A stretch of DNA of 34,736 bases, taken from assembly GCA_003142295.1 (NCBI GenBank), contig PLLV01000235.1:33856-68591 (forward strand), given 5' to 3'. Within the stretch, counting starts at the first letter, position 1. The number at the start of each line of letters is the position of its first letter. Made by a program: the position numbers and the translations under genes. This DNA comes from Syntrophaceae bacterium (lineage in GTDB: Bacteria; Desulfobacterota; Syntrophia; Syntrophales; UBA2185). Of the stretch, positions 8,751-20,494 are shown piece after piece. The notes under the pieces are model-generated. The model did not search any database, was not told the origin of the DNA, and worked only from the letters and a program-made list of their open reading frames with translations.

Positions 8751-9620
8751 GTGTCATGGTTTTTTCTTTCTCTGCTGGCCGCGCTCAGTCTCGCCACATC
8801 CGATGCCCTGACAAAAAGATTTTTCAGCAATCTCCCGCCGCTTATGATGGGGATTACCAGGTTGGGCTATGCCGTGCCGTGGCTCCTCGCAGCGCTCTTC
8901 TTTATACCCTGGATAATTCCTGACACGACATTCTGGTTCTGCATCGCTGTTGGCCTGCCCTTGGAAGCTTTGGCGTTTTACTGCTACATGAAGGCCCTCA
9001 AGGTTTCACCTTTGTCTTTAACAGTGCCATTCCTGGCCTTCACTCCCGGGTTCATCATCTTGACGGGATGGATCATCTTAGGTGAGGAAATCAGTCCCGG
9101 CGGCTTCTGCGGAATAATTCTAATAATTGTGGGGGCATATTTTCTAAATCTTTCCAAGACCAGGTACGGGCTCCTGGCCCCTCTCATGGCTATCTTCAGA
9201 GAACCGGGGTCCCGTCTGATGTTGCTGGTATCTTTCATATATGCCTTCACCTCAACAATCGGCAAGCTCGCCATCATTCACTCCAATCCCTATTTTTTCG
9301 GCATAACTTACAACATGGCTCTTGCCATGTTAATGACCCTTTTTCTTCCCGCAGCAGCAAATGCCGAACCTGTGAAAAATCTTGTCAGAAGGCCTCTAAT
9401 AGGCCTGATCCTTGGTGCACTTGTAGCCACCACTATCTTCAGCCATATGCTCGCCATATCGATGACGAATGTCGCCTACATGATATCGCTGAAACGCACT
9501 AGTCTTTTATTCGGCGTGCTGTACGGTGCGCTGTGGTTCAAAGAGGAAAAAATTACGGAGAGGCTGACGGGGGCCATCATCATGATAACAGGCGTTTTTT
9601 TGATAGGATGGTTCGGATAA
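8751..9620 (+). CDS. EamA/DMT-family membrane transporter
   Basis: 289 residues with ten hydrophobic segments arranged as two EamA repeats. LALATSDALTKRFFS-like sequence opens the first half, and SFIYAFTSTIGKLAI opens the second. FKEEKITERLTGAIIMITGVFLIG is the classic closing segment. The start is GTG 8751, since the nearby ATG at 8741 is out of frame. Substrates in this family include amino acids, nucleotide sugars and metabolites; none can be chosen here. Confidence 0.85.
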   Translation: MSWFFLSLLAALSLATSDALTKRFFSNLPPLMMGITRLGYAVPWLLAALFFIPWIIPDTTFWFCIAVGLPLEALAFYCYMKALKVSPLSLTVPFLAFTPGFIILTGWIILGEEISPGGFCGIILIIVGAYFLNLSKTRYGLLAPLMAIFREPGSRLMLLVSFIYAFTSTIGKLAIIHSNPYFFGITYNMALAMLMTLFLPAAANAEPVKNLVRRPLIGLILGALVATTIFSHMLAISMTNVAYMISLKRTSLLFGVLYGALWFKEEKITERLTGAIIMITGVFLIGWFG

Positions 9621-9742
9621 ATAGCGGGCAGAATCTGAGGACGTCTACCCTTCGACGCGGTGCACTCGCTCAGTGTCAATTCGACTAAGGCCTTATCCTC
9701 TGCCGCTGTCCTGGAAAAGGCCAAGTCTCATTGAATTTATTC

Positions 9743-9771
9743 TTGACAAATAAATCCTCCTCTGTTACTGA
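9743..9771 (+). promoter_or_regulatory. Candidate promoter for the riboswitch-led B12 transcript
   Basis: TTGACA at 9743-9748 is followed after 17 bases by TACTGA, a weak -10. Its position about 25 bases before the first riboswitch stem makes it the best candidate for the start of the B12 transcript. Confidence 0.4.
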
Positions 9772-9794
9772 TCAATCAAATAACAAAAGAATAC

Positions 9795-9938
9795 CGATGG
9801 ATGTGTGGAAGAGGGGTTAGATGCCCCCGCTGCCCCGCAGCCGTGAAGGGAACGAAAACCCGAAAAGCCACTGTCGTGAAAATGCATGACGGGAAGGCGG
9901 GTGAGTAGGGAGCCCGAAGCCGGAAAACCAATCCATCG
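9795..9938 (+). promoter_or_regulatory. Cobalamin riboswitch 1
   Basis: All the diagnostic pieces of a cobalamin aptamer are present in order: GCTGCCCCGCAGCCGTGAA, GGGAACGA, GCCACTG, GGGAAGGCGGG and the B12-box-like AAGCCGGAAAACC. The closing stem P1 pairs CGATGGAT (9795-9802) with ATCCATCG (9931-9938), 8 bp. Just downstream, CCCTCGAGGG (9943-9952) can fold on itself and bury the purine-rich ribosome site, suggesting translational control. The first ORF after it is decayed, so its effective target is probably tonB-btuFCD. Confidence 0.93.
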
Positions 9939-9961
9939 TGGTCCCTCGAGGGGGGAGTGCT

Positions 9962-10234
9962 ACGTTAACATTACTTTTCATACCTTTTCTAATTCTAATC
10001 TACCAGCCCGTCATTTCAGACAGCAAGGATGCAAGCGGTCCGGCTACATCTCTACGCCGGTTTAGCCATGCCGGAATCTCTGGACACACACCCAGTTGCC
10101 ATTATGTCATTGCGAGGTTGAGCCGAAGCTCCGAGCGATTGAGAAAGTTCGCAAGCGTCATGAGTTATTATGAAACGTTTCTAACGCGAACGGGAAGCAG
10201 GGAGGTTTTTTGCGATTTCATCAATTGTCATTAG
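9962..10234 (+). pseudogene. Decayed small ORF behind riboswitch 1 (lost start codon and 3' part)
   Basis: After GGGGGAG comes ACG TTA ACA. Read as if ACG were once ATG, the frame gives a signal-peptide-like start, (M)LTLLFIPFLILIYQP, followed by VISDSKDASGPA. Beyond ~30 codons it turns into low-information sequence that includes a TGTCATTGCGAGG-type dispersed-repeat piece near 10105-10145. The only legal start in frame is GTG 9938, which lies in the riboswitch P1 stem. I read it as the remnant of an exported or outer-membrane protein gene, perhaps another TonB-dependent receptor. Confidence 0.45.
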
Positions 10235-10291
10235 CAAGGAAAGATATAAGCGTAACATGTGAGCTGATGCGAATGTAAAAGGTGTTTACGA

Positions 10292-11098
10292 ATGCAGTTT
10301 CGGGGATTATTTAAGAGGGATTATTCAATTTCACGCAGATTGAAGCATTTGGCCTCCAGAGAAACACATAGAGACACTTTCTATGCCGTTTCTGCATCTC
10401 TGGCCATGCATATAGGCTTAGCCTTGATCCTGACGACGGCCACTGTCATGTCTGCCAGCTTAAAGCTGGGGGAAGTTTCCATTATACATGTATCGCTGGT
10501 TTCCATGAACACAGAGGGGATATCATCTACGAGTTCGTTGCCTGACGCTGGACATCAGGAGTCTGGCAAAGACAGAGAAAGAATTATCGAAACCGTTACA
10601 GTAGTCAAACCGGTTGATAAGCAGGACAGGCAAGAGTCGGCTGTAGCATTAGTTGCCCATAATGTGATTGCAACGCAGTCGCTCAATACCCCCGTTGCTC
10701 AAAGACTTCAACTGTTTGGTTCTGGAGAGAAAGATACATCACCAGCACAACAGGACCGTATAGGACAAGGTAGTTCTGTTATGTCCATCAATTCATCGTC
10801 TGGAGAGGTATCTCTGGCTATACCGCGGTATCGTGAAAACACCCATCCGGCCTATCCATTAATCGCACGCATTAGGGGACATGAAGGAATCGTCATACTT
10901 TCTGTGGAGATTTTTACCGACGGAAGTGTTGGCAGTTTAAAGATCAAGAAATCATCTGGATATACTGTGCTGGATAAATCCGCACTTGAGGCAGTAAAGA
11001 CCTGGAAGTTTGAGCCCGGCAGAAAGATAGGCAAACCTACCATTATGTGGGTTGATGTTCCTGTAAAATTCGTACTTAAAGATACCGAACCGACGTAG
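10292..11098 (+). CDS. tonB: TonB-family energy transducer
   Basis: 268 residues. A short basic cytoplasmic start is followed by one membrane helix at ~35-55 (YAVSASLAMHIGLALILTTA), which includes the family's conserved His. A long polar periplasmic linker follows. The TonB C-terminal domain runs from ~185: YPLIARIRGHEGIVILSVEI, then SSGYTVLDKSALEAVKTWKF. It passes proton-motive-force energy to outer-membrane receptors, here most likely the btuB-type receptor at 14128. ExbB and ExbD are not in the window. A weak AAAGGTG precedes the ATG. The btuF gene follows 27 bases later. Confidence 0.88.
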   Translation: MQFRGLFKRDYSISRRLKHLASRETHRDTFYAVSASLAMHIGLALILTTATVMSASLKLGEVSIIHVSLVSMNTEGISSTSSLPDAGHQESGKDRERIIETVTVVKPVDKQDRQESAVALVAHNVIATQSLNTPVAQRLQLFGSGEKDTSPAQQDRIGQGSSVMSINSSSGEVSLAIPRYRENTHPAYPLIARIRGHEGIVILSVEIFTDGSVGSLKIKKSSGYTVLDKSALEAVKTWKFEPGRKIGKPTIMWVDVPVKFVLKDTEPT

Positions 11099-11125
11099 CG
11101 GGATGGTAGAGGGAAGCGACTTTTC

Positions 11126-11962
11126 ATGATGAGGAAGGTTGGTTATCTGATAATTTTGCTATGGCTTTCACTTTCCGGTATCGTTTTTGCCTCGCCGCCG
11201 GGAAGAATTGTCTCCCTGGCGCCCTCTGTCACAGAGATCCTTTACGACCTCGGCCTCGGAGACCAGATCATAGCAGTTACTACCTTTTGCGACTATCCGC
11301 CACAGGCAATGGATAAACCAAAAATAGGCGGTTATTCGAATCCATCCATCGAGTCCATCATCGCCATGAAGCCTGATCTGGTCGTTATGATAGATGATGG
11401 TAACCCCATAGAAATCCAGGATAGGTTAAAGAAACTCGATATTAAGACGTATGTTTTCAGGGCAAAGCGCCTGAAGGAACTTCCGCAGGGCATCCGTGAT
11501 TTAGGAATAGTGCTTGGTATAAGAGATCGGGCTTTCAAGCGTGCGGCAAAAGTTGAGAATGTGATTCACAAGTATGAACGGCAGGCGCAGAAATCCCCGC
11601 CTCGTTATTTTAGAAAAAAGGCAATTTTTATAATTCAACCGGAACCGCTAATTGTTGCAGGGCCTGACACTATCATTGATGATGCCCTTAAACTCCTGGG
11701 ATTACAAAATATCGCCTCCGATGCTACTTCACCATACCCAAAATATTCCATTGAGGAGGTAATCCGGCAATCTCCCGATATAATCTTTATGGGGCAAGGC
11801 CCGATGACAAGAGAAATTTCAAAGGGTCTCTTGAGAAGGCTGGGCAGTGTTGAGGCCATCAAGAAAGGACGGGTCTATTATACGAGCGAATCACTGTACA
11901 GACTGACACCTAAGGTTATTTCCGGCATCGAGGAAATAGCTGGTTATCTTGGCGGGTATTAA
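11126..11962 (+). CDS. btuF: Periplasmic cobalamin-binding protein BtuF
   Basis: 278 residues. A signal peptide (residues 1-~23, LIILLWLSLSGIVFAS) precedes RIVSLAPSVTEILYDLGLGD, the standard opening of class III corrinoid/siderophore binding proteins. IAVTTFCDYPP and PKIGGYSNPSIESIIAMKPDLV are also typical. It captures corrinoid in the periplasm for BtuCD. The ribosome site is a distant GAGGG. Context (TonB, BtuC, BtuD, two cobalamin riboswitches, CbiR, CobQ) supports B12 over heme or iron. Confidence 0.9.
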   Translation: MMRKVGYLIILLWLSLSGIVFASPPGRIVSLAPSVTEILYDLGLGDQIIAVTTFCDYPPQAMDKPKIGGYSNPSIESIIAMKPDLVVMIDDGNPIEIQDRLKKLDIKTYVFRAKRLKELPQGIRDLGIVLGIRDRAFKRAAKVENVIHKYERQAQKSPPRYFRKKAIFIIQPEPLIVAGPDTIIDDALKLLGLQNIASDATSPYPKYSIEEVIRQSPDIIFMGQGPMTREISKGLLRRLGSVEAIKKGRVYYTSESLYRLTPKVISGIEEIAGYLGGY

Positions 11963-12020
11963 TATGGACACCACCTCGGATCAGAATTGAAGTTTATCCC
12001 CCAAAAGGATGTAACCTAAG

Positions 12021-12051
12021 ACCAATCCATCGCGAATATCCTCGCGGGAGG
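12021..12051 (+). promoter_or_regulatory. btuC leader resembling the 3' end of riboswitch 1
   Basis: ACCAATCCATCG (12021-12032) is identical to the last 12 bases of riboswitch 1 (9927-9938). In both places it is followed by a short hairpin (CGCGA...TCGCG here) and a G-rich ribosome site (GGGAGG). No aptamer core precedes it here, so it looks like a leftover or copied expression platform. Confidence 0.5.
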
Positions 12052-12055
12052 AACA

Positions 12056-13150
12056 ATGCTTAAGTACTTTTTCATACCCATTTTTATACTTTCTTCTATT
12101 TTCGTTTTTGCGACAACCAGAGACGTAAATAATAAGGTTGTTACTCTATCTCGCGTCATACGGGTGAGTCTCTTTCTGCTTGCCGTCTTTATCATCATTT
12201 CGGTAATTTCGATGCTCGTGGGGCCCAGTCACTTGGGTATGATATATCTTCTCAAAGGCTTGCTTTCAGGTATATACAGTGGAGACCTCAGTCTCATTCC
12301 GACGGAAAAAACGATCCTTTTTTCCATTCGTCTGCCCAGAATCATCTTCGCAGGCATTGTTGGCGCTTCCCTCTCGGCAGCCGGTGTCGTATTTCAGGGA
12401 CTCTTTCGCAACCCCCTTGCGGACCCTTATATCTTGGGAATATCCGGTGGAGCGGCAGTCGGGGCAATCATAGGCATCATTGCGGGAGCAAGTGTCATTC
12501 CTTTTGGAATTCCCGGTCTGGCCGTTTCAGGGGCGCTGCTTACAATCGCTCTGGTTTACGGAATCGCCCGAACAAAGAAAGAACTCCACTCCACCACACT
12601 TCTCCTGGCAGGCGTTATCGTCAATGCCTTTTTTTCTGCAGTAATTATGTTTCTGATTTCCACAACCAACAGTAAAGAACTGCGCAGTGTTATATTCTGG
12701 ATAATGGGAGATCTGAGTCTCGCCGAATGGAACGAGGTTATTTTGACAGGCTTTTTTCTAATGATCGGTTTCATTGTCATGTACGTCTATTCGAGACACC
12801 TGAATCTCATCGTCTCCGGAGAAGAGACGGCCATGCAACTTGGTGTGAATGTGGAACAAACCAAGAAGATCCTCTTGCTTGCCGCCTCACTTGTTACGGG
12901 AGTAGCCGTATCTGTTAGTGGCACCATCGGGTTTGTCGGCCTGATTATTCCGCACATGATGAGGATGCTTTTGGGTTCAGACCACAGACTTCTTTTGCCA
13001 GCTTCTGCCCTCTTCGGCGGTTCATTTCTTATTGTTGCCGACACCCTCGCCAGAACAGTCACAGCCCCCGCAGAGCTACCGGTGGGCGTAATTACTGCAA
13101 TGTGCGGGGCTCCCTATTTCATTTACCTCTTACGCAGGAGGGCCGTCTGA
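12056..13150 (+). CDS. btuC: Vitamin B12 ABC transporter permease BtuC
   Basis: 364 residues, FecCD/BtuC family. An extra N-terminal hydrophobic segment (residues 1-~20) precedes the ten expected helices. Family signatures are SIRLPRIIFAGIVGASLSAA, GLFRNPLADPYILGISGGAA and VSGTIGFVGLIIPHMMR. The ATG follows GGGAGGAACA, the best ribosome site in the cluster. The stop is 3 bases before the btuD start. Confidence 0.92.
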   Translation: MLKYFFIPIFILSSIFVFATTRDVNNKVVTLSRVIRVSLFLLAVFIIISVISMLVGPSHLGMIYLLKGLLSGIYSGDLSLIPTEKTILFSIRLPRIIFAGIVGASLSAAGVVFQGLFRNPLADPYILGISGGAAVGAIIGIIAGASVIPFGIPGLAVSGALLTIALVYGIARTKKELHSTTLLLAGVIVNAFFSAVIMFLISTTNSKELRSVIFWIMGDLSLAEWNEVILTGFFLMIGFIVMYVYSRHLNLIVSGEETAMQLGVNVEQTKKILLLAASLVTGVAVSVSGTIGFVGLIIPHMMRMLLGSDHRLLLPASALFGGSFLIVADTLARTVTAPAELPVGVITAMCGAPYFIYLLRRRAV

Positions 13151-13153
13151 TCT

Positions 13154-13984
13154 ATGTCCATAATCAAACTTGAACAGATAGGATTCAAATACAACGAGCA
13201 CCAGGTTCTCAAGAATGTCTCTTTTGAGGTACGAAGGGGCGAGTTCATGGGAATCCTCGGCCCCAACGGCTCCGGCAAAACAACCCTGTTGAATGTTATC
13301 GATGGCATCCTCATACCCCAGGAAGGAGAGCTATGGATAAACGGTACATCCTGCAATAAGCTCAAAAGGGAAAATCTGGCGAAGATTATCGCTGTCGTTC
13401 CCCAGGAATCCCTGATGATCTTTCCCTTCACTGTTCAGGAAATCGTTTTAATGGGACGGGCGCCGCATTTAGGCAAATGGAGGTTTGAAGGAGAAACAGA
13501 CTTCAAAATTGCCCACCAAGCCATGGAGATGACAGATACCCTTTCTTTAATGAACCGCAGCATGAATGCCTTAAGCGCTGGTGAGCGTCAAAGGGTCCTG
13601 ATTGCGCGAGCCCTTGCCCAGCAGCCGCAGATTATGCTGCTTGATGAGCCTACGGCCTTTTTGGACATCAGGCATCAGATTGACTTTTTCGATTTGATAA
13701 AGGCGCTGAATAAAAACCAGACTCTCACGGTAATTGGAGTCACACACGATATCAATTTGGCATCGCTTTATTGTGACAGGATTATTCTCTTGCGTGACGG
13801 TCATATTCACTGCATGGGAAGTCCTGAAGAAGTAATAGCAGAATCACATATCAGGGAAGTTTACGAAACCAATGTAACAGTAGACAGAAATCCGGTGACC
13901 GGTCAGCCACGGGTCACCCTTTTGAGTTCACATCCATCAGAGGGAGGAAGCCGGTCCAACTCCGGCGCTGCCCCGCAACTGTGA
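13154..13984 (+). CDS. btuD: Vitamin B12 ABC transporter ATPase BtuD, 3' end fused into riboswitch 2
   Basis: 276 residues. Walker A GPNGSGKTT is at 36-44, then LSAGERQRVLIARAL, Walker B MLLDEPTAFLD, and the switch His in GVTHD. The fold ends around VTGQPRVTLL (~residue 257), where relatives usually stop. The last ~16 residues (HPSEGGSRSNSGAAPQL) are encoded by the 5' half of the second cobalamin aptamer, and the TGA stop lies inside the conserved aptamer core. The added tail is probably not functional protein. Confidence 0.92.
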   Translation: MSIIKLEQIGFKYNEHQVLKNVSFEVRRGEFMGILGPNGSGKTTLLNVIDGILIPQEGELWINGTSCNKLKRENLAKIIAVVPQESLMIFPFTVQEIVLMGRAPHLGKWRFEGETDFKIAHQAMEMTDTLSLMNRSMNALSAGERQRVLIARALAQQPQIMLLDEPTAFLDIRHQIDFFDLIKALNKNQTLTVIGVTHDINLASLYCDRIILLRDGHIHCMGSPEEVIAESHIREVYETNVTVDRNPVTGQPRVTLLSSHPSEGGSRSNSGAAPQL

Positions 13985-14085
13985 GCGGAACGAAATCCAC
14001 ATAATGCCACTGATTTTTCCTGTAAGGAATCTCGGGAAGGCGTGGATGTAGGGGAAAGCCGCAAGCCAGGACACTCGTCTGATGG
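13934..14085 (+). promoter_or_regulatory. Cobalamin riboswitch 2 (overlaps btuD, precedes btuB)
   Basis: The conserved elements are GCGCTGCCCCGCAACTGTGA, GCGGAACGA, GCCACTG, CGGGAAGGCG and AAGCCAGGA. P1 pairs CCATCAGA (13934-13941) with TCTGATGG (14078-14085), 8 bp. The first 51 bases are coding for the BtuD C-terminus. The leader then runs CCCGAGGGGGAGAGGAG to the receptor ATG at 14128, so ligand folding may hide that ribosome site. No promoter is seen in front of it, so it probably controls the second half of one long transcript. Confidence 0.94.
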
Positions 14086-14127
14086 ACCTAATCACTACGA
14101 TCCCGAGGGGGAGAGGAGAAACGTCAG

Positions 14128-16221
14128 ATGAATACCGTATCAAAATTAATCGTCATCCCTGTCATTTTCTCATTAATCATTGGTATGGCCTGTTTTGCAC
14201 TCGCGGCACCGAAGGATGATTCTCAGGAAAAAGCGATAGTCATGGAGGAAGTCGTTGTCACTGCAACACGGGATACAGAAGAGATTCGGAAGGTTCCGGC
14301 AAATGTCTCTGTGATCACAGCCAAGGACATTGAAAAATCGGGCGCAACGTCTATTGTAGAAGTTCTCGATAAGTTAGAGAGCATTCAGTTCCGCGACTAC
14401 AGCGGCAATTCCTCTCAATCGGTCATCGACTTGCGCGGCTTTGGAGGGGATAATCCTTTTGGGAAGACCCTGATCATGCTCGACGGCAGAAAAATGAACA
14501 GACCCGACATGTCCTCCATTAACTGGCTGCAGATTCCTTTGAATAACATTGAAAGGATCGAGGTCGTCCGTGGCGCAAGCAGTGTCCTCTATGGTGACGC
14601 AGCCATTGGTGGTGTCATAAACATCATCACCAAGAAAGGAGAGGGAAAAACGAAATTCAATGCCTCCGTTATGGCAGGAAGCTATGGTCTCCACAATGAA
14701 CGGGTTGGCGTCACCGGTTCTGAGGACAAATGGACCTACGCGTTGAACGGAGAAAACAATTTCAACTCCGGCTACCGGGAACGATCGCAATTATCATCAC
14801 AGGGAGGGGGCTTAAATGTAGGTTACGATGCAAGCGAGTTGTTCAATATTTCTCTGGGACTATCCTTCAACAAGACAGATTATCAGATGCCGGGCTACCT
14901 CACGAAGGTCCAGATGGAGCAGGACAGGCGGCAATACCAGCAAGCGACACCGGCATTATTTAGTGTCGCAACTCCCGATGATGACGGCTCGGATAAATAT
15001 ACAAACGTCAATCTGGGCATCAAGTCAATCTTAGGGTCCTTGGGAGAAATTGATATCAATTTTCTTTATGGTAATAAGGATATTCAGACTAATATGACGT
15101 CATGGTCTCAGTTCTCAAATACCAAGATGGATACATACAGCATTACTCCAAAATACATACTGGCGAAGGATATCTTCGGCTTTAAGAACAAATTGGTTCT
15201 CGGCCTGGATTATTACAACGAACCCTATAAGAAGGATTTTTTCAGCAGCCGGGAGAGAACCATAAAAACAAGCTGGGCGGATTTGACAAGGGACAGCCTT
15301 GGATATTATATCCGGGATGAATTCAGTATCCTGAAAAGTCTGATTCTGAATGTCGGGTATCGATCAGAGCAGGCATCCATCAAGGCGTCCAACACGGACA
15401 CGGTGACGCCGGCCAACAGCTTCACGAATCAAGACAAAACCTACAATGCCGAGGCTTACGAAGCGGGACTGACATGGCTCGTCGGCAAGAAATCGAAGGT
15501 CTACGGGAAGTATTCCACCATTTACCGCATCCCTTTTTTGGATGAAGTGGCCTCTTACAATGGTTTCGGCGGTACCTTATTTAACAATAACCTTGAGAAA
15601 GAAAAAGGGGTCAGTACAGAGGTGGGGATGGAAATTTATCCCCTGGATAACCTGAAAATAGGGCTGACCCTGTTCAGGATCGATATGGAGGATGAAATCT
15701 CATGGTTCGCTACAGGTATGTTCACAGGGTATAATAAAAATCAAGATAAAACGCGCCATGATGGTGCTGAGGTTTCTCTGTCCTATCTGTGGGAAAAGCG
15801 GGCTAAACTCTATGGGAATTTCACCTACCACAAGGCCACCTTTGAGAACGGCGCCAACAATAAAAAGGAAATGCCTCTGGTACCCAACCGGATGGCGAAT
15901 GCCGGCCTGGAGATCTATCTGCCCTATAATCTGATGTTGCGTCCCGAAGTGCGCTATGTTGGAGATGCCTTTCTCTCCCAAGACTACAACAACATTTCCG
16001 AGAAGCTGGAGTCTCACACACTCTACAATCTTTATCTTTCTTACAAGCCATCTTTTAGAAAAGTCACTATGACGGCGTTCTTCGGGGTGGAGAATCTGAC
16101 CGATGTAAAATATTCGTCATTTGGCTCGTATAATGTCCCGGCATATGGATCGGGGGCTCCCAGTACCTACTACCCTATGCCGGGAATCATGTTTAAGGGA
16201 GGACTTTCCTTTGAATTTTAA
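14128..16221 (+). CDS. btuB: TonB-dependent outer-membrane corrinoid receptor (BtuB type)
   Basis: 697 residues. A signal peptide ends near ALAAPKD. A TonB box, EEVVVTATRD, is at ~40, like the BtuB box. The plug domain contains IDLRGFGGDNPFGKTLIMLD and IERIEVVRGASSVLYGDAA. A 22-strand barrel follows, ending in Phe (GGLSFEF) as required by outer-membrane assembly. A cobalamin riboswitch directly upstream, with cbiR and cobQ downstream, makes corrinoid the likely ligand. Its last codons overlap the cbiR start. Confidence 0.9.
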   Translation: MNTVSKLIVIPVIFSLIIGMACFALAAPKDDSQEKAIVMEEVVVTATRDTEEIRKVPANVSVITAKDIEKSGATSIVEVLDKLESIQFRDYSGNSSQSVIDLRGFGGDNPFGKTLIMLDGRKMNRPDMSSINWLQIPLNNIERIEVVRGASSVLYGDAAIGGVINIITKKGEGKTKFNASVMAGSYGLHNERVGVTGSEDKWTYALNGENNFNSGYRERSQLSSQGGGLNVGYDASELFNISLGLSFNKTDYQMPGYLTKVQMEQDRRQYQQATPALFSVATPDDDGSDKYTNVNLGIKSILGSLGEIDINFLYGNKDIQTNMTSWSQFSNTKMDTYSITPKYILAKDIFGFKNKLVLGLDYYNEPYKKDFFSSRERTIKTSWADLTRDSLGYYIRDEFSILKSLILNVGYRSEQASIKASNTDTVTPANSFTNQDKTYNAEAYEAGLTWLVGKKSKVYGKYSTIYRIPFLDEVASYNGFGGTLFNNNLEKEKGVSTEVGMEIYPLDNLKIGLTLFRIDMEDEISWFATGMFTGYNKNQDKTRHDGAEVSLSYLWEKRAKLYGNFTYHKATFENGANNKKEMPLVPNRMANAGLEIYLPYNLMLRPEVRYVGDAFLSQDYNNISEKLESHTLYNLYLSYKPSFRKVTMTAFFGVENLTDVKYSSFGSYNVPAYGSGAPSTYYPMPGIMFKGGLSFEF

Positions 16222-17011
16222 GGGAGATTTGTCTCTGAAAAACCGATTCCCCTTCCGCCTGGGAGCGACCTCATACATCATTCCGGCGGATCTCCTGTCA
16301 AATGTCAACTTTCTGGCAGACAAGGTGGACGATATCGAATTGGTGCTGTTTGAGTCGGATGAAATCACCAACCTGCCCGATGCCGCCACGGTAAAGATGC
16401 TGAAGGAGATGGCAGAACGGTATGATCTGACCTACACCGTCCATCTGCCTCTCGACACCTGGATGGGACACGAAGATGAGTCTGTGCGGCAGCGATCTGT
16501 GGACAAATGCCTCCGCGTTATCGAGTGCACCGCTCCGCTTTCGCCCTTTGCCTATGTTATCCATTTCCATGGGGATCATCCGGGTGAAAGTCCATCGCTT
16601 GACCTGGCACGCTGGATCGGTGGTCACCGGCTCTCTGTGGAGAGGCTCCTTCGGGATGTTAATTCACGGGATTTGTGCGTGGAGACACTTGATTATGCTT
16701 ATGATCTTATAGAAGACATTGTCAGTGATTACGGACTGAGCGTCTGCCTGGATATTGGCCATCTCCTTCTTTGCGGGCATGCGCCGGGAGATTATCTCGA
16801 CCGTTATTTACCGCAGACGCGGGTAATCCACATCCATGGGGTTGAGGACGGACATGACCACCGTAGCCTGTCCTTCTTGCCCACCGGTTTGTTGACAACC
16901 CTCATAGACCGGTTGGTTAACGGTTCGAATAATTCCAGGGTTTTAACAATGGAGATCTTCGATGAAGGGGCGTTGAATCAATCGCTGGATGTTCTGAGCA
17001 GCTTTGTATAA
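16211..17011 (+). CDS. cbiR: Cobamide-remodelling phosphodiesterase CbiR
   Basis: 266 residues from TTG 16211, chosen because AAGGGAGGA lies 7 bases upstream; the track start is buried in the receptor gene. It is a TIM barrel of the AP-endonuclease/xylose-isomerase-like superfamily. The CbiR-type start is RLGATSYIIPADLL followed by VDDIELVLFE. Likely metal ligands lie in VHLPLD, VIHFHGD, VETLDYA, LDIGHLLLCGH, HIHGVEDGHDH and MEIFDE. CbiR cuts the nucleotide loop of cobamides so the cell can rebuild them with its preferred lower ligand. It overlaps btuB by 11 bases and is followed by cobQ, a context that strongly supports the call. It could also act on another sugar phosphate, but that is less likely. 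Confidence 0.82.
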   Translation: MNFKGDLSLKNRFPFRLGATSYIIPADLLSNVNFLADKVDDIELVLFESDEITNLPDAATVKMLKEMAERYDLTYTVHLPLDTWMGHEDESVRQRSVDKCLRVIECTAPLSPFAYVIHFHGDHPGESPSLDLARWIGGHRLSVERLLRDVNSRDLCVETLDYAYDLIEDIVSDYGLSVCLDIGHLLLCGHAPGDYLDRYLPQTRVIHIHGVEDGHDHRSLSFLPTGLLTTLIDRLVNGSNNSRVLTMEIFDEGALNQSLDVLSSFV

Positions 17012-17034
17012 TGATTTACTGATAAAACAGGAAG

Positions 17035-18597
17035 ATGAAGAAGACAGAGAAACACCGCAAAGCAAAGTGTGTCGCCATATTCGGAACAGGTTCGGATGTA
17101 GGGAAAAGCGTCGTGGTAGCAGCCCTCTGCCGTATTTTCAACGATCTTGGCATTCATGTCGCGCCATTTAAAGCCCAGAATATGTCCAACAATTCCTACG
17201 TCACGCCCGAGGGCGGAGAGATGGGGCGGGCTCAGATTGTTCAGGCGGAGGCAGCGCGGATAGCCCCACACGTGGATATGAATCCGGTCCTTCTCAAACC
17301 ATCAACAGACACAGGTGCCCAGGTTGTCCTTTACGGACAACCCCTGGGAAACAGAGAAGCAAAGGAATACTTTTCCGACACAAACTACCTTTATGAAAAG
17401 GCCTTGGCCAGTTTAGAACGCCTCAGGACTTTGTACGCCCTTATCTTCATGGAAGGCGCCGGCTCCTGCGCCGAGGTCAACTTGCGATCCCGTGATTTTG
17501 TGAATTTCCGCATGGCACATGCCGCCAATGCACCGGTTATTCTGGTCGCCGACATAGACAGGGGAGGTGTCTTCGCCCAGCTTATCGGCACACTAAACGT
17601 GATCCCCAGAGAGGACAGACAGCGGGTGGCGGGTATCATCATCAACCGCTTCCGCGGCGACCCGGATCTTTTCAGAACAGGCATTGAATTTATCGAAGGC
17701 GAAACCGGTCTTCCCGTCCTGGGACTCGTTCCATACTTTCATCACATTCAGATAGACTCTGAAGACGGCCTGCCGCTTGATTTCCTGATTGACCCGCCAT
17801 TCGGTCCCGAACCGGGAAAAGTGAACATTGGTGTCATTCGGTTGCCGCATATCTCCAATTTTACTGACTTCAATCCTTTCGAGCGTGACGCATTCATTAG
17901 TCTCCACTACCTTGCTCGACCCCGGACTCTGTATGGATACGACGCGATCTTTATCCCTGGTACGAAAAACAGCCGTTTTGACATGGAATGGCTCAGGCAT
18001 ACAGGCTGGGCAACTCACCTCGCAGAATTCGTCCATGACGGCGGCCAACTCGGCGGCATATGCGGCGGCTACCAGTTGCTTGGGAAGCTGATCCGTGATC
18101 CTTACGGTATTGAAGGGACACCGGGAGAGACATATTGTCTTGGTTTTCTGGATGTCGAGACAACCCTGCAGAGCGAAAAAATACTGTCCCGTTCCAAAGG
18201 CATCTGGGAACGCAGTGGAGAGAATGTGGAAGGTTACGAGATACATATGGGCATCACAGAACGTGGCCCCGGCGCATTGCCAGTGATACGGGTTCTGTCG
18301 CAAAACGGAAGACCCGCCAACAGTTTTGATGGGGCTGCAACGCCAGATGGCAGGGTATGGGGCACTTATTTTCATGGATTGTTTGATGTGCCCGGCTTCA
18401 GGCACGCCTTTCTGAAAACGATCTCGGCCAATTATAAACCCGGTGAAAACGATCGCGACACCGGTCATGTATCAAATTTTAAAGATCACCAGTATGACCT
18501 TCTGGCCGAACACTTCCGAGCGCATTTAGATATGGAGAAATTGTTTAAGATCGTAGGTTTTGATAAAGAGACCTGCAAACTGATAAGAACCTTCTGA
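17035..18597 (+). CDS. cobQ: Cobyric acid synthase CobQ/CbiP
   Basis: 520 residues. The N-terminal ATP-binding domain starts AIFGTGSDVGKSVVVAAL, then PFKAQNMSNNSYV and EMGRAQIVQAEAA, and includes DIDRGGVFAQLIGT. The C-terminal class I glutamine amidotransferase domain has the nucleophile Cys343 in GGICGGYQLLG and His447 in TYFHGLFD. It amidates the b, d, e and g side chains of the corrin ring to give cobyric acid. It is the last gene of the riboswitch-2 unit. With CbiR beside it, the operon can receive corrinoids at more than one stage. A GGAAG lies close to the ATG. Confidence 0.94.
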   Translation: MKKTEKHRKAKCVAIFGTGSDVGKSVVVAALCRIFNDLGIHVAPFKAQNMSNNSYVTPEGGEMGRAQIVQAEAARIAPHVDMNPVLLKPSTDTGAQVVLYGQPLGNREAKEYFSDTNYLYEKALASLERLRTLYALIFMEGAGSCAEVNLRSRDFVNFRMAHAANAPVILVADIDRGGVFAQLIGTLNVIPREDRQRVAGIIINRFRGDPDLFRTGIEFIEGETGLPVLGLVPYFHHIQIDSEDGLPLDFLIDPPFGPEPGKVNIGVIRLPHISNFTDFNPFERDAFISLHYLARPRTLYGYDAIFIPGTKNSRFDMEWLRHTGWATHLAEFVHDGGQLGGICGGYQLLGKLIRDPYGIEGTPGETYCLGFLDVETTLQSEKILSRSKGIWERSGENVEGYEIHMGITERGPGALPVIRVLSQNGRPANSFDGAATPDGRVWGTYFHGLFDVPGFRHAFLKTISANYKPGENDRDTGHVSNFKDHQYDLLAEHFRAHLDMEKLFKIVGFDKETCKLIRTF

Positions 18598-18598
18598 A

Positions 18599-18660
18599 GC
18601 ATCCCCCCTTGTCCATCCTGGCGGACGATCTGTCTGGATCAGGGCATGGGGGGGTGAGTC
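18599..18660 (+). repeat. C/G-rich hairpin element, copy A (also a candidate bidirectional terminator)
   Basis: GCATCCCCCCTTGTCC opens it and GGGCATGGGGGGGTG closes it, forming a long imperfect stem between the convergent cobQ and typA. Aligned to copy B at 20518, about 48 of 58 positions agree, in the same orientation. There is no T-run after the stem. Confidence 0.75.
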
Positions 18661-18670
18661 ATTTCGGCGT

Positions 18671-20494
18671 TTACGGATTATTGTCTTCCCTGCGCTTCGA
18701 TCCCCGTTTATTGGGATCAAGCTCCATCTTCCGCAGGCGTATGTGTTGCGGGGTTATTTCCACAAGTTCATCCTCAGCGATAAATTCAATGGACTGATCC
18801 AGGGAAAGCGGTCGCGGCGGCCTTAAGGTCACGGTCGCTTCCGCCGTCGAACTCCTGATATTTGTGAGTTTCTTTTCCTTGGTAATATTCACGGGCATGT
18901 CACCGGTGCGATTGCGCTCGCCAATAATCATCCCGCCGTAAACCTCGGTTCCCACCTCAACGAGGAGTTCACCGCGGTCCACCATGGCCAGGCTGGCATA
19001 GTTAGTTACCCTGCCGTTTCTATCGGCCAGAAGAGCGCCGCTTGCCCGCTGCGGGATCGGCCCGAACCACGGTTGATAGTCTTCAAAGAGCGTATTCATC
19101 ACACCCGCCCCCTTGGTATCAGTCAAAAAATGGCTGCGAAAACCGATCAGGCCGCGGCAGGGAACAAGAAACTCCATATTGACCCGGCCGCTTCCCTTAT
19201 TAATCAGGTGGACCATGCGTCCTTTTCTCACCGAAAGTTTTTCCGTCACAATGCCGACGAACGCTTCGGGGATATCGAGAAAAACACGCTCCACAGGCTC
19301 CAGGGTTTTGCCATTTTCTTTTTTCGTGATAACGTTTGGTTTCGATACCATGAGCTCATAGCCTTCCCGGCGCATGGTCTCGATCAGCACGGCCATCTGC
19401 AGCTCTCCCCGCCCACAGACCTCGAAGGCGTCCTTACGTTCCAATGGTTTGAGTTTCAGCGCTACGTTCCGGAAACTCTCCTTTTCCAAACGTTCAAGAA
19501 GATGACGCGACGTCAGATACTTTCCTTCCCTGCCGGCAAAGGGACTGTTGTTCACGTAAAAGATCATGGAGACGGTCGGCGCGTCGATAAGTATCCGGGG
19601 GAGCGGCATGGGATTGTCCTGCGATGTAATCGTATCGCCGATACTGATAGCCTCGACGCCGGTAACAGCGACGATGTCACCGGCCTCTACGACATCCACC
19701 TGCTTTTTCTTCAAACCGTAAAACGTATAAAGGGCGGAAAACCTGACACCTGGTGTGATCGCATTTTCTCCGCAAAGGGCATATGTCTGATTCATCGCGA
19801 GCCTTCCGTTGATCAACCGCCCTATGCCAATCTGCCCCACATAGGGATCATAATCGAGATTCGTAACCAGGAACTGGGTAACCTGTTCGTCATCGGCAGC
19901 AGGACCGGGTATTGTGGAACAGATGGCGTCAAACAGGGGTTTCAGGTCTTCCGATTGATCTCCCGGCTTCTGATGGGCAATGCCCCGTTTTGCGTTGGTA
20001 TAAAGGATGGGAAACTCGATCTGCCGCTCGTTCGCATTGAGATCGATAAAAAGGTCGTAAACCTCATTAATGACCTCCTCGATCCGGGCGTCACCGCGGT
20101 CGATCTTGTTGATGACGACCACAATGGGCAGTTTTTTTGCGAGGGCTTTTTTAACGACGAATCGTGTCTGCGGAAGCGGTCCCTCACTGGCATCGACCAG
20201 CAGAATGGCCCCATCGACCATATTCAGGCTGCGTTCAACCTCACCGCCGAAATCCGCATGACCGGGTGTATCGACGATATTGATCTTGATATTGTCGTAC
20301 CATATGGCCGTATTCTTCGCCATGATGGTAATCCCCCGCTCCCTTTCGAGATCCATGGAGTCCATAACCCGCTCTGCGATCTCCTGATTCTCCCGGAAGG
20401 TGCCAGTTTGCTTGAGCATGGCATCGATGAGGGTCGTTTTACCGTGATCAACGTGGGCGATGATAACAATATTTCTTATGTTCTGCTTTCGCAA
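18671..20494 (-). CDS. typA: Ribosome-binding translational GTPase TypA/BipA
   Basis: About 607 residues. G domain: IAHVDHGKTTLIDAML (G1), RGITI (G2), DTPGHADFGGEVERSL (G3) and VINKIDRGD (G4). EF-Tu-like domain II, EF-G-like domains and the BipA-specific C-terminus (GLIGFRSHFLTDTKGAG, GPIPQRASGALLAD) follow. BipA acts in ribosome assembly and stress adaptation. I prefer TTG 20494, giving MRKQNIRNIVII, which matches the family start and has AAGGGAG upstream. The track ATG at 20521 is the end of a hairpin with no gap to a ribosome site. ATG 20521 remains possible. Confidence 0.93.
   Translation of the reverse strand: MRKQNIRNIVIIAHVDHGKTTLIDAMLKQTGTFRENQEIAERVMDSMDLERERGITIMAKNTAIWYDNIKINIVDTPGHADFGGEVERSLNMVDGAILLVDASEGPLPQTRFVVKKALAKKLPIVVVINKIDRGDARIEEVINEVYDLFIDLNANERQIEFPILYTNAKRGIAHQKPGDQSEDLKPLFDAICSTIPGPAADDEQVTQFLVTNLDYDPYVGQIGIGRLINGRLAMNQTYALCGENAITPGVRFSALYTFYGLKKKQVDVVEAGDIVAVTGVEAISIGDTITSQDNPMPLPRILIDAPTVSMIFYVNNSPFAGREGKYLTSRHLLERLEKESFRNVALKLKPLERKDAFEVCGRGELQMAVLIETMRREGYELMVSKPNVITKKENGKTLEPVERVFLDIPEAFVGIVTEKLSVRKGRMVHLINKGSGRVNMEFLVPCRGLIGFRSHFLTDTKGAGVMNTLFEDYQPWFGPIPQRASGALLADRNGRVTNYASLAMVDRGELLVEVGTEVYGGMIIGERNRTGDMPVNITKEKKLTNIRSSTAEATVTLRPPRPLSLDQSIEFIAEDELVEITPQHIRLRKMELDPNKRGSKRREDNNP

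Follow-up and report, generated by a model that had tools for sequence, protein, structure and literature searches.

The window, by which we mean the whole 34,736-nucleotide stretch of DNA that was analysed, carries a run of seven genes on the forward strand, tonB-btuF-btuC-btuD-btuB-cbiR-cobQ, all of which lie where a first-pass annotation had placed them and whose order is confirmed by open reading frames and family profiles (Table 1). That annotation put the run under a single riboswitch. Riboswitch control is borne out by RF00174 matches, but there are two of these within the gene run, one heading the import operon and one before btuB; the only other match in the genome lies before cobU. 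BtuB, BtuC, BtuD and BtuF belong to the right families, though all four score below the B12-specific equivalog cut-offs, and the B12 specificity of the transporter is therefore assigned from the riboswitches and the gene context. On that contextual footing, the proposed role in corrinoid import appears supported.

Table 1. Features of the corrinoid gene run, in window coordinates.
Feature	Position	Strand	Evidence
Putative promoter, TTGACA box at ~9744	9737..9781	+	Conserved in alignments of G001, G002, G003, G004 and G006
Cobalamin riboswitch 1, heads import operon	9782..9950	+	RF00174, 68.1 bits (gathering 31.5)
Leader from riboswitch 1 to tonB, possible decayed btuC 5' end	9951..10100	+	Tentative
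tonB	10292..11098	+	PF03544, 79.6 bits
btuF-like periplasmic binding protein	11126..11962	+	PF01497, 109.5 bits; NF002894 (BtuF), 108.6 bits, cut-off 234 not reached
Pre-btuC stretch, 38 bases	12018..12055	+	BLAST match starts at 12018; resembles 3' end of G004 riboswitch 1 plus Shine-Dalgarno
btuC permease	12056..13150	+	PF01032, 324.8 bits; NF007081 (BtuC), 334 bits, cut-off 461 not reached
btuD ATPase	13154..13984	+	NF007082, 268 bits, cut-off 537 not reached
Cobalamin riboswitch 2, before btuB	13888..14096	+	RF00174, 84.0 bits (gathering 31.5)
Short CCC/GGG hairpin overlapping btuB Shine-Dalgarno	14101..14121	+	Sequence conserved in nine relatives
btuB-like TonB-dependent receptor	14128..16221	+	PF07715, PF00593; TIGR01779, 138.6 bits, cut-off 600 not reached
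cbiR, cobamide-remodelling phosphodiesterase	16229..17011, alternative start 16211	+	NF041277, 275.9 bits
cobQ/cbiP, cobyric acid synthase	17035..18597	+	NF001989, 603.9 bits

The protein encoded between two cobamide genes, btuB on one side and cobQ on the other, has an uncertain start: a TTG at 16211 gives 266 residues, with a TTG at 16229 and a CTG at 16235 as alternatives. Score, conserved metal positions and tree placement agree in identifying it as CbiR, as first proposed. It matches NF041277 with an E-value of 2.9e-82 and a score well over the cut-off of 105 bits, which two paralogous TIM barrels of its own genome do not reach (71 and 66 bits) and which was exceeded in none of 14 control genomes. 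Across 15 homologues from several phyla, H72, H112, E152, D175, H178, H201, H203, D210, H211 and E242 are invariant, and all positions expected for the metal-binding His, Glu and Asp are conserved; we take these residues to correspond to the metal ligands of EndoIV, to which they were matched by motif (AP endonuclease 2 superfamily). In the tree the protein falls with its Syntrophaceae relatives inside a CbiR subclade supported at 99/97, apart from other TIM barrels of its own and related genomes; the branch joining all CbiR is weak (82/38), and the comparison set comprised non-CbiR TIM barrels of the order rather than characterised sugar isomerases. That the protein is instead a sugar isomerase or a DNA-repair TIM barrel, as membership of the common Pfam superfamily PF01261 would allow, is extremely improbable in the face of the CbiR score, the far lower scores of the paralogues, the control genomes and the position inside CbiR in the tree. 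Its closest solved structure, 3wqo (E 1.4e-4), is not a close relative, and CobQ has no close relative among solved structures. In Akkermansia muciniphila, CbiR cleaves the phosphoribosyl bond by hydrolysis, releasing cobinamide-phosphate and alpha-ribazole (PMC7733943); the window's CbiR is predicted, from its family membership and metal ligands, to make cobinamide-phosphate, in a reaction expected to depend on metal and to be sensitive to oxygen.

The window belongs to a MAG of 3.28 Mb (G000; 93% complete, 5% contamination) whose named relatives are Syntrophaceae and Syntrophales MAGs, and whose contents we assessed by family searches. The nucleotide-loop genes cobU, cobT and cobS are all present, about 30 kb upstream on the window's contig behind the third cobalamin riboswitch, with cobA further on. 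The search for cbiB and early ring genes turned out otherwise. No ring-building genes were found in G000, CbiC included, and the sole PF00590 match is the 16S rRNA methyltransferase RsmI; with CobU, CobT and CobS present and ring genes absent, the genome falls among the cobinamide salvagers. It encodes one cobyric acid synthase. PF03186 matches only a CbiB fragment of about 50 residues directly behind cobS, made up of an intact-looking N-terminus joined to sequence from further along the gene, after which comes a repeat element. This element, which follows the fragment at L032:14298-14444 (contig C212, minus strand), is palindromic, with inverted ends CCTTTGCA...TGCAAAGG. In the same place behind cobS, the congener G001 has a whole cbiB; in the congener G002 the gene is broken by a different internal deletion, and a third congener, G003, has no PF03186 match. 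The gene was lost separately in G000 and G002, perhaps recently. No CobD match over the cut-off was found in G000, G002 or G003. Because G000 is an incomplete MAG, single absences weigh little, a caveat mitigated by the cbiB fragment and by the equal absences in G002 (95% complete) and G003 (99%). A CbiA-like protein on contig C115 (L035) is encoded next to dsrM and a dsrK-like gene, and its identity to the corrin CbiA of G001 is only about 35%; on these grounds it was set aside as a corrin CbiA, and its neighbourhood and divergence suggest that it is probably DsrN, although no uroporphyrinogen-III methyltransferase (SUMT) was found in G000.

We read the locus as an operon with which a relative of Syntrophaceae, auxotrophic for the corrin ring, takes up and remodels cobamides, and put the probability of this full explanation at roughly 83%. 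Judging from family and context, TonB, BtuB and BtuFCD would import cobamides, CbiR would cut the nucleotide loop to give cobinamide-phosphate, and CobU, CobT and CobS would attach the preferred lower ligand, with CobA carrying out adenosylation. If the two riboswitches act as RF00174 elements usually do, plentiful cobamide would turn the operon off. CobQ would be the remainder of an ancestral btuB-cbiR-cobQ-cbiA-cbiB-cobD, its gene intact and constrained, and incomplete corrinoids without the aminopropanol arm would be unusable for want of ring genes, cobD and cbiB. The breakage of cbiB behind cobS matches a prediction from CbiR biochemistry, namely that CbiB is no longer needed once remodelling proceeds via cobinamide-phosphate: the CbiR product enters at CobU, so the loss of cbiB fits a CbiR-based life.

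The first-pass annotation had taken cobQ as a sign that the cell also accepts incomplete corrinoids, and this part of its salvage strategy is not supported, the missing CbiB and CobD speaking against it. Use of cobyric acid, the CobQ product, needs CobD and CbiB; with CobD below the cut-off and cbiB fragmentary, cobyric acid has no known onward route, and the usual pathway context of CobQ, with ring synthesis upstream and CbiB downstream, is absent from G000. One could suppose that CbiB and CobD are merely missing from the assembly and that incomplete corrinoids are salvaged via CobQ after all, given that the MAG is incomplete and that G004, of an outgroup genus, retains cobQ, cbiA, cbiB and cobD without CbiC. 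However, the cbiB fragment sits within a contig, the gene is independently broken in G002 and absent in G003, and CobD is absent from all three congeners, which makes this very unlikely. G004 itself (L110; 100% completeness), with cobQ, cbiA, cbiB and cobD present and CbiC absent, is a candidate for the use of corrinoids that are not fully amidated and stands nearer to the idea of dual salvage than the window does.

CobQ scores far above the NF001989 cut-off of 273 bits, and its translation carries GTGSDVGKS, GICGGYQLLG and GTYFHGLFD (P-loop; GATase_3 Cys/His). The G004 locus reads btuC-btuD-riboswitch-btuB-cbiR-cobQ-cbiA-cbiB-cobD-typA, and in the window typA comes immediately after cobQ, a junction common to G000, G002 and G003. 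The cbiR-cobQ pair therefore represents the beginning of what was a longer operon, and the deletion is older than the split of the three congeners. Among these, cobQ has an omega of 0.13-0.19 and no stops, and cbiR an omega of 0.15-0.19. Changes in cobQ private to each branch, synonymous/nonsynonymous, number 16/5 in G000, 25/5 in G002 and 11/11 in G003, where neutrality would give about 3 nonsynonymous per synonymous change. Loss alone does not account for a cobQ that is intact and under constraint.

A repair function could account for this constraint: CobQ would re-amidate imported cobamides or cobinamide at propionamides (b, d, e or g) that had undergone hydrolysis in the environment, making the damaged molecules usable again, for which CbiA and CbiB would be unneeded. 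The gene is intact and as constrained as cbiR in three congeners without cbiB or cobD, and the counts in G000 and G002 lie far from neutrality. An independent case, G050, from an unrelated family and with 100% completeness, has cbiR-cobU-cobT-cobS-cobQ and neither cbiB nor CbiC. The pattern is rare, however, since 29 of 30 sampled CbiR+ CobQ+ genomes across the phylum have CbiB, and a literature search found no paper on corrinoid amide repair. Moreover, since cbiB was lost independently, and perhaps recently, in G000 and G002, part of the constraint on cobQ may be older than those losses. We consider repair a rather unlikely candidate, and rate it below a second possibility, to which we give about an even chance: that CobQ is a recent leftover, its role lost after the deletion of cbiA, cbiB and cobD, with the gene decaying and its low omega reflecting an earlier time. 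A nested series within one family fits such decay, with cobQ, cbiA, cbiB and cobD in G004, cobQ only in G000, G002, G003 and G008, and cobQ lost too in G005 and G007. The equal counts in G003 point the same way, and in a large survey CbiA/CobB is kept by 46% of precursor salvagers (PMC6461909). What a leftover does not readily accommodate is that the deletion predates the split of G000, G002 and G003, yet cobQ is without stop or frameshift in all three while cbiB is in pieces. The intact cobQ poses a testable question, whether CobQ acts on finished corrinoids.

The same slot is filled differently in G001. Its flanks are collinear with the window at about 82-94% identity, on the left up to window position 8765 and on the right from 18684, and both share riboswitch 1 and the roughly 130 bases that follow it. 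Within the slot (window 9737-18684 against contig C94; L150, L114), the import genes are replaced by cobDQ, cobA, cbiA, cbiC, cobalt-transporter genes, cbiD, cbiE, cbiL, cbiF, cbiH and cbiJ, a corrin operon that sits between the orthologous riboswitch 1 and typA. A WD40-caspase-like protein is encoded between this operon and typA (L150:14970-17441). The CobQ of G001 falls, with full support, in a distinct clade made up of CobD-CobQ fusions of other members of the order that make the ring de novo, and no CbiR over the cut-off was found in G001. Because G004 has the import state beside typA, parsimony favours the import cassette as ancestral and the G001 arrangement as derived, from which we infer a swap from import to de novo synthesis in G001. 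That one genus can hold both ring makers and salvagers is already known from Akkermansia (PMC6974653). Here, one genus offers a natural comparison in which one riboswitch-headed slot holds opposite strategies, ring making in one case and import with remodelling in the other. Among 60 genomes of the order, CbiR occurs in 21 and CbiC in 7, with both in one, a near-exclusion that fails across the phylum, where CbiC is present in about 26 of 43 CbiR+ genomes.

The start of the import operon also differs in arrangement from that in other genomes, in that riboswitch 1 lies directly before btuC in G004, G006 and G007, whereas tonB and btuF intervene in the window. The leader that follows riboswitch 1 may, tentatively, be a decayed btuC start; its similarity to the btuC 5' end was matched by 0 of 1000 shuffles against G006 and is weak against other genomes. 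By its resemblance to G004, the short stretch before btuC probably survives from an ancestral state in which riboswitch and btuC adjoined. At window 10080-10234, in the leader before tonB, there is a GTCATTGCGAGG-type stretch that resembles a dispersed repeat. A consensus scan for promoters and terminators gave nothing above chance and did not call the putative promoter upstream of riboswitch 1.

Riboswitch 2 starts inside btuD, and the overlap (13888-13984) contains the last btuD codons and the stop. In its outer stem, 13932-13941 pairs with 14078-14087, the 5' strand consisting of btuD codons, and the btuD stop (UGA or UAA) falls in the conserved aptamer sequence ACUGU(G/A)A in 8 of 9 relatives, the frame of G040 stopping earlier. 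Over nine genomes the outer stem is 93% paired, against 22-46% when slid, and its covariation does not exceed that of shuffles. The hairpin before btuB, whose fold is no stronger than shuffles, may serve as a translational expression platform. A ribosome at the end of btuD would sit on part of the aptamer, and btuD translation could therefore disturb its folding and favour translation of btuB; we offer as a hypothesis that btuD translation gates the btuB riboswitch. Compact spacing without regulatory meaning is the simpler reading of the overlap. A literature search that covered few subscription journals turned up no B12 aptamer that extends into a complete gene upstream of it. We think it improbable that a combined picture holds, in which CobQ repairs side chains of cobamides or cobinamide in CbiR-type salvagers independently of the de novo pathway, the 3' end of btuD gates the btuB riboswitch, and import/remodelling and de novo cassettes are exchanged in one slot, including a regain of biosynthesis in G001.

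The closest known parallel is A. muciniphila, whose cbiR locus comprises cobDQ, cbiB, cobT, cobS, cobU and cbiR (PMC7733943), with a TonB-dependent receptor near it (PMC6974653). The window genome is likewise a ring auxotroph with a CbiR family member, and has cobQ, nucleotide-loop genes and a TonB-dependent receptor nearby. The pairing of cbiR with cobQ that was first singled out is real, but it is not new, cobDQ being present at the A. muciniphila cbiR locus (PMC7733943). Unlike Akkermansia, which keeps cbiB and cobD(Q), the window genome has lost cbiB and cobD, its cobUTS lie at a distance of 30 kb, and the import operon, btuB and cobUTS each have a riboswitch in front. It resembles the cobinamide salvagers (PMC6461909) in assembling the nucleotide loop without corrin ring synthesis, and differs from them in adding CbiR and in keeping cobQ without cbiB. 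As in CbiZ remodelling in Rhodobacter sphaeroides, the lower part of imported cobamides would be removed; CbiZ, however, yields cobyric acid and needs CbiB, whereas CbiR yields cobinamide-phosphate and does not, and this freedom from CbiB fits the loss of cbiB in the window genome. The B12 riboswitches of Mycobacterium tuberculosis with translated uORFs (PMC11260477) show an interplay of translation and aptamer that is only proposed for the window, and involve short leader uORFs, whereas here it is the end of btuD, a complete gene upstream, that extends into the aptamer. A CbiR import and remodelling locus is already a known type; the cassette swap, the orphan cobQ and the overlap of aptamer and gene are the parts worth following.
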